Shown here one piece after another: positions 2,586 through 13,219 of a stretch of 17,849 bases of DNA. Origin of the DNA: Anaerobacillus sp. (GTDB lineage: Bacteria > Bacillota > Bacilli > Bacillales > Anaerobacillaceae). The position numbers were made by a program, and so were the translations under genes. The number at the start of each line of letters is the position of its first letter. Position 1 is the stretch's first letter. The stretch is taken from NCBI GenBank assembly GCA_007118195.1, contig SKSA01000100.1, forward strand, positions 1-17,849. The letters run 5' to 3'. Under the pieces are notes generated by a model. The model saw only the letters and a program-made list of their open reading frames with translations, was not told the origin of the DNA and ran no database searches.

Positions 2586-2936
2586 ATGAAATTTGAAGGA
2601 ACAGGTATCTCTAATAAAGAAGTCGAGTTTGCTGAAGTAGAGCATGTATTAAGTGAGGCTGGTTTTGTTCATGCTGGCCAGTGGGATTATGAACGGGTAA
2701 CATTTGACTATAAATTTGATGACCTCGTAAATGATGACATTTATTATCTACGTATTCAAGCATTTGCTGTTAAGGGGGACATCCCTTCACCATCTTGTGT
2801 TATTAAATTTTTAGATCCTATTTTAGGAAAGCATTATTATCCGCATGGCGTTGAATATGCTGAAGAAAATTTTCCTAAACATATTATCGAAAAAAGTCAT
2901 AAAAAATTAGATCAAATTGAAGCTTTATTAAAATAA
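2586..2936 (+). CDS. YugN-like family protein (ylbA position)
   Basis: The 116-residue soluble protein has the YugN-like family pattern: MKFEGTGI at the start, AGQWDYERVTFDYK in the first third, YYLRIQAFAVKGDI in the middle and VIKFLDPILGKHYYPHGVEY toward the end. The family is small, Bacillales-specific and of unknown function. No signal peptide or membrane segment is seen. The ATG is preceded by AGGAGG with a 7-base gap. In B. subtilis the gene between the cta operon and ylbB is ylbA, of similar size, so this may be its equivalent. That equivalence is inferred from position only, and here the gene faces the opposite way to ylbB. Confidence 0.8.
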   Translation: MKFEGTGISNKEVEFAEVEHVLSEAGFVHAGQWDYERVTFDYKFDDLVNDDIYYLRIQAFAVKGDIPSPSCVIKFLDPILGKHYYPHGVEYAEENFPKHIIEKSHKKLDQIEALLK

Positions 2937-4610: not shown

Positions 4611-4663
4611 AAAAAGAGGCTGTCCTAAAACAAAGTTTCTGACACTTTGTTTTAGGACAGCCT
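4611..4663 (-). terminator. strong bidirectional terminator between ytvI-like gene and ctaM, perfect 20-bp stem
   Basis: The arms 4617-4636 and 4644-4663 are perfectly complementary over 20 bases with a 7-base loop. The minus-strand side ends in CTTTTTTGTGT, so it mainly stops ctaM transcription; plus-strand transcription from ytvI also enters the hairpin. It is a repeat-family member, sharing AAAACAAAGTGTC with the hairpin at 511-553. Confidence 0.92.
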
Positions 4664-4711: not shown

Positions 4712-5161
4712 TTAAAAGCCCCAAATTGCGCGAAACACGTTTGTAACTTCCCCTGGAGGATAGATCACATAAAGTAAGAAATATACAGCAATCCCTGTTG
4801 AGGAACCTAAAAACCAAATGACCGACGTAATAGGTCCTAACTTTCGATGTAGTTTCATGTTATTTTTATAACCTGAAATAAGAGCAGTAATCCCTAAAAC
4901 AGCAGCCGTTGTTGCCAATGTAATATGGATGATTAAGAAAATAGTATAATACACCTTTACTTCTTCAGGGCCTCCAAATGCAGTACTTCCAACAAAAACT
5001 GTCTTTGCTACATACGTTACAAAGAAAATCACCGCAAATAAAGCTCCGAAAAGCATCATTTTCTTATGTAACTCTATTTTTCCTCTGGCAACTACAACCC
5101 ATCCTAAAGCTACAAAAACAGCACTAATCGCAATGAAAATCGTACTTATTAAAGGTAACAA
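4712..5161 (-). CDS. ctaM: DUF420 / CtaM-type aa3 oxidase assembly membrane protein
   Basis: The 149-residue protein has four hydrophobic segments (about 1-24, 36-55, 70-95, 108-132). It carries the DUF420 signature: HKKMMLFGALFAVIFFVTYV, then GSTAFGG, YYTIFLIIHITLA, HRKLGPITSVIWFLGSSTGIAVYFLLY and a terminal AIWGF. Staphylococcal CtaM of this family is needed for activity of the aa3-type quinol oxidase, probably in metal or heme centre assembly; B. subtilis YozB is a homologue. TTG at 5161 is preferred over GTG at 5170, because the GTG lies inside the AAAGGAG ribosome site while the TTG is 8 bases after it. It sits where B. subtilis has ctaG. It has its own promoter with a CRP/FNR-type box and a leader hairpin. 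Confidence 0.85.
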   Translation of the reverse strand: MLPLISTIFIAISAVFVALGWVVVARGKIELHKKMMLFGALFAVIFFVTYVAKTVFVGSTAFGGPEEVKVYYTIFLIIHITLATTAAVLGITALISGYKNNMKLHRKLGPITSVIWFLGSSTGIAVYFLLYVIYPPGEVTNVFRAIWGF

Positions 5162-5203
5162 ATCAGTCACTCCTTTCCTAACTTAAGATACATTACACAT
5201 ACG

Positions 5204-5254
5204 AAAAAAAGACTCTATTCTAAAGACGGTTGTTTTAAAGTTTTAAACAGAGTC
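5204..5254 (-). terminator. intrinsic-terminator-like hairpin in the ctaM leader
   Basis: On the minus strand GACTCT (5254-5249) pairs with AGAGTC (5216-5211). The stem can extend to about 13 bp with wobbles and a one-base bulge, and is followed immediately by seven T residues (5210-5204). It lies between the upstream promoter and the ctaM ribosome site, about 27 bases before the latter. It therefore either attenuates ctaM or ends a separate short RNA. Confidence 0.75.
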
Positions 5255-5323
5255 AAAAGAATGCTTGCCTCTTTACGTAAAGAGTGGAGTTCTTGAAAAT
5301 AAATGAACTTTCAAATACAATCC
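5204..5323 (-). ncRNA. candidate ~120-nt leader RNA or small RNA upstream of ctaM
   Basis: An RNA starting about 7 bases after the TATAAT at 5335-5330 and ending in the T run at 5210-5204 would be about 120 bases long. It would contain a perfect hairpin CTCTTTACGTAAAGAG (5284-5269) and a terminator hairpin, and no plausible open frame with a ribosome site. Start and end are inferred from promoter and terminator motifs only. Confidence 0.4.
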
Positions 5324-5329
5324 TAAATC

Positions 5330-5354
5330 ATTATACCATGTGATAAATATCACA
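5330..5354 (-). promoter_or_regulatory. ctaM promoter with CRP/FNR-type operator
   Basis: TGTGATAAATATCACA (5339-5354) is a perfect 16-bp palindrome of the form TGTGA-N6-TCACA, the CRP/FNR family consensus. On the minus strand it is followed directly by TGGTATAAT, an extended -10 (TATAAT 5335-5330). The box would be centred at about -23, covering the spacer and -35 region. That geometry suits repression better than activation. The extended -10 can explain the lack of a good -35. Confidence 0.65.
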
Positions 5355-5411
5355 CCAGTATATAATTTTGACATTTTTAAAACATTTTTATAGTGTTTAT
5401 GTTTAAATCTT

Positions 5412-5493
5412 CAATTTAAAATTTACAAATGAAGCCATCAAAACAGCTCCGTCTTCATTTAACATATAAATGTAGAGCGAAAATTTTAAATTG
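5412..5493. repeat. nested inverted repeat downstream of ctaF
   Basis: Outer arms CAATTTAAAATTT (5412-5424) and AAATTTTAAATTG (5481-5493) are perfectly complementary. Inside them lies a second perfect 8-bp pair, AAATGAAG (5427-5434) and CTTCATTT (5453-5460). The arms are very AT-rich, so chance is possible. There is no coding frame. Together with the ctaF terminator it fills the stretch between ctaF and the ctaM promoter. Confidence 0.45.
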
Positions 5494-5508
5494 TTCATTC
5501 AACTTAGA

Positions 5509-5544
5509 AGAAGCCGACATACATTTACAATGTAGTCAGCTTCT
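5509..5544 (-). terminator. probable terminator of the ctaBCDEF operon
   Basis: On the minus strand AGAAGC (5544-5539) pairs with GCTTCT (5514-5509), and the stem continues GAC/GTC and TACAT/ATGTA with one wobble and one bulged base. That gives about 15 bp and a 5-base loop. It starts 12 bases after the ctaF stop codon. The following T tract is weak (TCTAAGTT), so termination may be partial. Confidence 0.6.
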
Positions 5545-5556
5545 CTAAAAATCATA

Positions 5557-11925: not shown

Positions 11926-11943
11926 TTGTGAAACATTTCACAA
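11926..11943. promoter_or_regulatory. Rex operator of the NADH dehydrogenase gene
   Basis: TTGTGAAACATTTCACAA fits the Rex consensus TTGTGAA-N4-TTCACAA exactly in both arms. The palindrome extends one more T/A pair on each side. Rex is the NAD+/NADH-sensing repressor of low-GC Gram-positives, and B. subtilis Rex controls its own ndh gene. The site overlaps a candidate -35 (TTCACA). Confidence 0.82.
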
Positions 11944-11985: not shown

Positions 11986-12034
11986 TCGCAAACTTACTTT
12001 TTTAGAATAAATTAGGACTAGGAAGGTGTTCATT

Positions 12035-13219
12035 ATGAAAAAAAAACAAATTGTTATTCTTGGCGGTGGGTATGCGGGTGTAATGACTGCTATAAATTTA
12101 CAAAAAAAAATAAAAAATAAGGAAGCAGATATTATTTTAGTAAATTATGAGGATTACCAATATTTAACAACAAAGTTACATGAACCTCCAGCAGGTACAT
12201 TACAAGAAGATAAAATTAAAATAATGATTAATGAGATCATTGACACTAATAAAGTCATCTTTAAAAAAGCAACTGTTATCGGTATTGATAAGGAAAACAA
12301 AAAAGTCCTCTTAGGAAATGAAAAACTAGATTATGATTACTTAGTTGTCGCATTCGGAGCCGTTCCTGAGACCTTTGAAACACCAGGTGTAAAAGAGCAC
12401 GCATATTTCATTTACAATTTTGATAGTATTCACCAACTAAGAAATCAAATTAAAACTATGTTTCAAACATATAGTAAAGAAGCGAACGACGATTTATTAA
12501 GCTTCATAGTCGTTGGTGGAGGCTTTACTGGTGTTGAATTTTTATCAGAATTAGCGTACAATGCTCCAGCCTTATGTAACAAATATGGGGTTCCTTTAGA
12601 AAAAATTAAGATCAATTGTGTTGAAGCCAGTTCCTCAATCTTAAGGGAATTTGAAGGTGAAATGATTAATTATTCACTTTATGTTCTAGAACAATATGGA
12701 ATTAAGATTAGATGTAATAAGAAAGTGATTAGGTGCGAAAACGATGGAGTAATTTTGGATAATTCAGAGAAAATCTACGGTAATACAATTATTTGGACGG
12801 TAGGTATTAAGGGAACTCACATCTCATCTCAAGCTGGATTTAACGTGATCAATGGTCGTGTGAAGATCAATGAATTTTTACAAGTCCCTGATGAAGAAAA
12901 TATTTTCTTTATCGGTGATAGCAGCATTTATACAGACGAACGAGGGAACGAAGAACCACCAACTGCTCAAATAGCTATTCAACAGGGAGAACATTGTGCT
13001 AGAAACATTGTTGCATTAATCAGAGGAAAAGCTCTAAAACCATTTAAATATATTTATCGAGGAACATTAATGTCTTTAGGTAGAAAGAAGGCTACTGGAG
13101 TTGTCTATGGAATAAAAGTTAAGGGGCGAATTGCCTCATTGTTAAAGAAAGTAACAGAATGGCGCTATTACTTGAAATTAGGTAGTATTAAATTATTTTT
13201 AAAGAAAATGTTTATTTAA
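12035..13219 (+). CDS. ndh: type II NADH dehydrogenase (NDH-2), single-subunit NADH:quinone oxidoreductase
   Basis: The 394-residue flavoprotein has two Rossmann motifs: ILGGGYAG (residues 8-15) for FAD and VVGGGFTGVE (159-168) for NADH. It also has the FAD motif FFIGDSS (291-297) and the quinone-side AQIAIQQGE (311-319). The length and the C-terminal GTLMSLGRKKATG region match B. subtilis Ndh. The enzyme passes electrons from NADH to menaquinone without pumping protons, at the inner face of the membrane. ATG at 12035 follows GGAAGGTG; an upstream GTG at 12026 lies inside that ribosome site. A Rex operator upstream supports the function. The gene is very AT-rich near its start and is not part of the B. 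subtilis pycA-ctaA order. It converges on pycA. Confidence 0.9.
   Translation: MKKKQIVILGGGYAGVMTAINLQKKIKNKEADIILVNYEDYQYLTTKLHEPPAGTLQEDKIKIMINEIIDTNKVIFKKATVIGIDKENKKVLLGNEKLDYDYLVVAFGAVPETFETPGVKEHAYFIYNFDSIHQLRNQIKTMFQTYSKEANDDLLSFIVVGGGFTGVEFLSELAYNAPALCNKYGVPLEKIKINCVEASSSILREFEGEMINYSLYVLEQYGIKIRCNKKVIRCENDGVILDNSEKIYGNTIIWTVGIKGTHISSQAGFNVINGRVKINEFLQVPDEENIFFIGDSSIYTDERGNEEPPTAQIAIQQGEHCARNIVALIRGKALKPFKYIYRGTLMSLGRKKATGVVYGIKVKGRIASLLKKVTEWRYYLKLGSIKLFLKKMFI

Follow-up and report, generated by a model that had tools for sequence, protein, structure and literature searches.

In the B. cereus group, bcr1 is a repeat of about 147-167 bp present in up to 130 copies per genome, and three papers describe bcr1-bcr3 as MITE-like repeats that are intergenic, foldable and found in UTRs (PMC2267715; PMC6542083; PMC3446304). 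The mobility of the bcr repeats is, according to one of these papers, tied to repetitions of a TTTAT motif (PMC6542083). Bacterial MITEs, including the pneumococcal SPRITE, BOX and RUP elements, are characterized in a review as short and intergenic, with inverted ends, target duplications and a stable structure (PMC10969869). In B. subtilis, functional Qox and Cta have been reported to depend on CtaM (PMC13344008), and the aa3 oxidase of S. aureus is reported to need it as well (PMC4958251). No study of the ctaM promoter, or of Fnr at ctaM, was among the literature matches listed, and the word Fnr does not occur in the 2026 mBio paper on CtaM (PMC13344008).

The window analysed here is a stretch of 17,849 nucleotides from Anaerobacillus sp. 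(contig SKSA01000100.1 of assembly GCA_007118195.1), in which ctaM is encoded on the minus strand. The region preceding the gene had earlier been interpreted as either an attenuated leader or a new oxygen-regulated small RNA (the original prediction). The elements on which this was based, an extended -10, an exact TGTGA-N6-TCACA, the palindrome CTCTTTACGTAAAGAG and a T7-tailed hairpin, are all found on the minus strand at 5204-5354. The features of the locus are as follows.

5339..5354, 3 nt upstream of the -10: Crp/Fnr-type palindrome TGTGA-N6-TCACA, an exact match whose place and spacing are kept in five of seven congeners
5330..5338, minus strand: extended -10 TGGTATAAT of the ctaM promoter, read from the sequence, with TGnTAWAAT conserved in five of seven congeners
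5323, minus strand: expected transcription start, placed from the position of TATAAT
5211..5322, minus strand: degenerate copy of a MITE-like repeat (R1 match 5307-5209), with approximate ends and a blurred 5' end
5269..5284: perfect 16-nt palindrome, aligning with a shifted register to hairpin 2 of the repeat (CTTCACGC-AAA-GCGTGAAG)
5211..5254, minus strand: terminator-like hairpin with a 10-bp stem and a 24-nt loop, -8.9 kcal/mol when folded alone, its 3' arm being the 3' end of the repeat (..AGAATAGAGTC)
5204..5210, minus strand: T7 run directly after the repeat, read as flanking sequence and not as part of the element
5170..5178, minus strand: ctaM ribosome-binding site GGAAAGGAG, with GGAGG at the corresponding place in G003, G004 and G001
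4712..5161, minus strand: ctaM (DUF420, PF04238; Pfam score 126.5 bits), with a likely TTG start at 5161 as judged from congeners

Codes from G000 to G006 denote the seven genomes of the genus, G000 being that of the window. The start of ctaM is likely TTG 5161 and not GTG 5170, the start in the ORF list, which overlaps the ribosome site. The CtaM of G006 is 93% identical to that of the window.

Crp/Fnr-type promoters of Bacillus have the consensus TGTGA-N6-TCACA, and the position for activation by Crp/Fnr proteins is -41.5. Upstream of ctaM the minus strand reads TGTGATATTTATCACA at 5354-5339, TGG, and TATAAT at 5335-5330, so the box is the same exact palindrome as in Bacillus, but its centre lies at about -23.5 relative to the inferred start, which is a repressor position and not that of an activator. 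Two exact boxes are found in the window, the ctaM box among them; when one mismatch is allowed there are three matches against 0.49 expected, a number reached by 2 of 200 shuffles. The combined pattern TGTGA-N6-TCACA-TGnTAWAAT is present exactly once per genome in five of the seven Anaerobacillus genomes searched, each time just before ctaM. The pattern search did not find it in the remaining two, G002 and G005; by eye, G002 has a degraded form of the box at the corresponding place and G005 has none. Outside the genus, 24 genomes were compared; the sequence upstream of ctaM was read in 16 members of the order, none of which has a box at up to one mismatch there, and the other eight gave only distant DUF420 matches. 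Among the boxes of the five congeners the N6 spacer is variable and the half-sites are invariant, which is the pattern expected of a protein-binding site.

These comparisons support the view that TGTGA-N6-TCACA and the extended -10 form a separate, conserved ctaM promoter with an overlapping predicted Crp/Fnr-type operator, and this part of the original prediction was borne out. The promoter is probably regulated, and it marks ctaM as a transcription unit of its own in the genus Anaerobacillus. Since a box centred near -23.5 overlaps the site of the polymerase, repression would be the natural mode of action. The HTH_Crp_2 domain occurs in all seven genomes of the genus (nine matches in G000, seven of them above the cut-off), yet it also occurs in all 14 control genomes, so that its presence says little.

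Another protein that recognises a similar site could also bind the putative operator. If it were a Rex site, ctaM would respond to NADH/NAD+ and not to a Crp/Fnr protein. The published S. aureus Rex consensus TTGTGAAW4TTCACAA does contain TGTGA-N6-TCACA (PMC2883068), and a repressor position is what would be expected for Rex. In all five ctaM sites, however, TGTGA is followed by T or C and never by A, TCACA is preceded by A or G and never by T, and the bases flanking the box are G or A at its left end and T at its right end. As the bases adjoining the half-sites thus differ from the published consensus, Rex is the less likely reader at ctaM, and we regard this reading as unlikely overall. By contrast, TTGTGAAACATTTCACAA at 11926-11943 fits the Rex consensus except for one C inside W4. 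This Rex-type box, on the plus strand about 90 nt before ATG 12035, contains TGTGAAACATTTCACA, the second exact TGTGA-N6-TCACA of the window, and is followed by a gene for a pyridine nucleotide-disulphide oxidoreductase resembling NADH dehydrogenase (ORF 12026-13219).

The congeners differ markedly in what lies between the common promoter and ctaM. The distance from the -10 to the start codon is 168 nt in the window, against 62 nt in G006, 34 in G003, 31 in G004 and 28 in G001, making the leader of the window 106-140 nt longer than in these four. A BLAST comparison with G006 gives 86% identity over 99 nt of the promoter, and the match stops at 5320. The extra segment has a 70% BLAST match elsewhere in G003, upstream of ptsH, and this place belongs to a large set of dispersed repeat copies. 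The original prediction had set the conservation of the hairpin in relatives as a test, and no hairpin/terminator segment is found at ctaM in any of the four other congeners with this promoter. A dedicated attenuator or oxygen-regulated sRNA evolved at ctaM would agree with the conserved promoter and operator; against it stand this absence, the membership of the segment in a dispersed repeat and an Rfam search of the window, which gave no family at the gathering score. Either form of the proposal, the attenuator or the sRNA, is not supported and appears very improbable. It is formally conceivable that the extra segment was lost in the other lineages and not gained in this one.

The parent repeat is about 182 bp long, with inverted ends and 8-bp target duplications, and is dispersed in the genome. 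In G003, 40 of 187 BLAST candidates were scored, and all 40 lie between genes according to a crude ORF call. Thirty of them could be delimited, the other ten could not; the delimited copies are 180-189 bp long, mostly 182-183 bp. The 8-mers flanking the copies are alike at seven or more of eight bases in 17 of the 30; mismatched pairs reach this in 21 of 870 cases, and agreement is highest at shift 0. At up to three mismatches, the 24-bp inverted ends GGCTSTTTTCGTAAACTTTGTTGC have 242 occurrences in G001 and 222 in G003, and the reversed control gave none in any of the seven genomes. A covariance model, R1, was built from 23 of 62 aligned copies (18 from G003, two each from G000 and G006, one from G004), leaving out the copy of the window. 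At E≤0.01, with 150 candidates scored per genome and a few G003 places counted on both strands, it matches 143 times in G003, nine times in G000, seven times in G006, once each in G004, G001 and G005, and not at all in G002. The counts for G000 are lower bounds, since this draft genome is 62% complete.

MITEs are bounded in length at a few hundred bp. The family has such a short length together with dispersed copies, terminal inverted repeats and target-site duplication, which supports the classification of the repeat at ctaM as a bacterial MITE. Like the bcr repeats it is intergenic, foldable and found in a leader, and like the bacterial MITEs named above it is short and structured, with inverted ends and target duplications. 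It differs from bcr, compared here by description only, in having ends of the type GGCTGTTTTCG.. and 8-bp duplications where bcr mobility is linked to TTTAT, and from bacterial MITEs generally in its five-helix cloverleaf, the pairs of which covary across three families. None of the papers searched yielded the repeat by name, and no paper joining Anaerobacillus with MITE, or Anaerobacillus with genome, insertion sequences and repeat, was retrieved.

A search of 299 genomes of the order, with two candidates scored per genome and hence giving a lower bound, found a match at E≤1e-5 in at least 19, four in the genus and 15 outside it. In ten of these 15 the match is confined to about 30 nt at the 3' end. 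Near-complete copies with 79-83% identity (one with 70%) occur in three genomes of genus g65 in family f6, and G136 of family f31 has copies with the same ends and changed insides. No match was found in plasmid and phage records at E 0.001. The GGCT.. ends and 8-bp duplications suggested ISL3 as the parent, but no ISL3 match was found in G000, G001, G003 or G006, and the five of 14 ISL3 loci examined in other congeners all lack the ends GGCTGTTTTCGTAAACTTTGTTGC. Within ISL3, the transposase family tested, no autonomous transposase with the ends of the repeat was found.

Derivatives with the ends of the repeat and other insides occur in G001 (L093, L097), G006 (L078, L079, L082-L086) and G005 (L096, L101, L106). 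Judged from their sequences, repeats with common ends but different insides make up several MITE-like subfamilies of about 125-195 bp in one genus. Three G003 loci (L053, L057, L064) are composites: one repeat passes at its 3' end directly into the terminus of a second subfamily (GGCTGTTTTCGCAAAGTTTGTTGC or a near variant), and the loci look as if repeats insert into each other. In G172, the copy L278 (198-400) has its second and third hairpins partly duplicated, is 203 nt long against 182-193, and folds at -113 kcal/mol.

Intact copies fold as a cloverleaf with paired ends, one long and two short hairpins (-88.4 kcal/mol, z -13.6). Covariation was examined in an alignment of nine copies from three families and four genomes. 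Fifteen loci were tried, of which L012 and L281 could not be delimited; four of the 13 delimited were left out, namely L276 (almost identical to L267), L280 (from the place of L272), L095 (carrying a deletion) and L053 (wrongly delimited). Changes on both sides are seen in 22 of 75 pairs, against 11.6 in shuffles, and 91.1% of the cells pair, against 83.3% in shuffles and 39-46% when the partners are slid. Of the five covariation measures, the number of further pair types does not rise above the shuffles, with 34 against 31.2, a value reached by 103 of 500 of them. The structure was derived from this same alignment, only four genomes contribute, and the arms of a DNA hairpin can correct each other; the cloverleaf is therefore best read as showing a fold maintained across families, from which an RNA function does not follow. 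The four loci with intact copies gave no Rfam match at the gathering score. In genomes of Bacillales, a structured repeat family of this kind can be mistaken for riboswitches or sRNAs.

The window copy scores 39.2 bits with R1, corresponding to E 5.9e-7 in the window and 8.6e-5 genome-wide; these E-values are rough, and the G003 copy that BLAST had initially matched to the window was among those used for training. Of the 22 window matches listed at E≤10, the next best scores 14.6 bits. The copy is 70% identical to that of G003, and six of 16 model pairs are broken. The long first hairpin is missing, and neither a clear inverted end on the 5' side nor a target duplication can be recognised; only the 3' end can. 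These losses, which make its borders approximate, and the broken pairs mark the copy as a relic. Taken together, the matches support the interpretation of the extra leader segment as a degenerate member of a dispersed mobile repeat.

The two hairpins of the leader can be viewed against this background. Among 1000 dinucleotide shuffles of the 121-nt leader, 6 contain a perfect 16-nt palindrome, which makes a chance origin unlikely. Its RNA form, a perfect hairpin of six pairs with a loop of 3-6, is common by chance and appears in 265 of 1000. The second hairpin, described as intrinsic-terminator-like, is present before T7, and a hairpin of -8.9 kcal/mol or better at that place is likewise improbable by chance, being found in 15 of 1000 leader shuffles; against this, the loop has 24 nt and the ten pairs include G-U. 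It forms in folds of a 99-nt or an 81-nt piece, but the minimum free energy fold of the 130-nt leader is another structure (z -1.75; 12 of 200 shuffles as good), and a terminator scan with permitted loops of 3-8 did not list the hairpin at 5211-5254. In the G003 copies the target duplication comes right after the 3' end. The 3' arm coincides with the terminal part of the repeat on its 3' side, and the T-run begins immediately beyond; the terminator look thus arises from the insertion.

The 3' hairpin and T-run may nevertheless cause some termination in the ctaM leader. In a stronger form of this idea the repeat has been domesticated, so that hairpin and T-run would terminate a transcript of about 120 nt and ctaM would be expressed only by read-through. 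Precedents can be cited: a review deems MITE-derived terminators conceivable and refers to terminator-like SPRITE repeats (PMC10969869), and another paper, on two strains of B. cereus, places 84 of 165 intergenic repeats of one and 62 of 155 of the other in mRNA, UTRs included (PMC3446304). The flaws of the hairpin described above weigh against domestication, as do its absence at ctaM from every congener with this promoter and the fact that nothing was found that is able to switch it, and this reading appears improbable. A further version, in which the parent is an undescribed Bacillales mobile element with a cloverleaf kept functional across families, for transposition or as RNA, and the ctaM copy was recruited as a terminator giving a short RNA from an oxygen-responsive promoter, seems more doubtful still.

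By far the most probable explanation of the ctaM leader is a conserved Crp/Fnr-type promoter followed by a MITE-like repeat that was inserted in this lineage and then decayed. Comparison between genomes shows the conservation of promoter and predicted operator, the added length and the membership in the repeat family. The repeat would have entered a short leader between the conserved promoter and ctaM, and subsequently degenerated. A protein of the Crp/Fnr family bound at -23.5 would block RNA polymerase, so that ctaM would be repressed when the protein is active. The ctaM leader would be transcribed with the relic inside it, and the 3' hairpin of the relic with the T-run would bring about at most partial, unregulated termination. 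An apparent regulatory RNA is in this way recast as a testable insertion, and the relatives that have the same promoter unit without the insert constitute natural controls for the effect of a mobile repeat on a respiratory gene.

Some minor observations concern the neighbourhood of ctaM. In G006 a further R1 copy, L073 (G006:C42:42220-42331), is located some 2 kb past ctaM, following a gene that at its end is similar to the YugN-like gene of the window (2586-2936). The corresponding place of the window has no R1 match of note, which suggests that repeats come and go around the ctaM locus. The stretch 5171-5556 of the window is a non-coding gap with its own promoter between ctaF and ctaM, whereas many of the 16 other order members have, directly before ctaM, sequence that looks coding and by eye resembles the C-terminus of what we take to be CtaG. 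A ctaG gene thus seems to be absent from the place between ctaF and ctaM in this genome. Finally, the terminator scan revealed a strong hairpin of 20 pairs at 4617-4663, between the gene for an AI-2E-family transporter and ctaM, which is terminator-like on both strands and is a possible bidirectional terminator.
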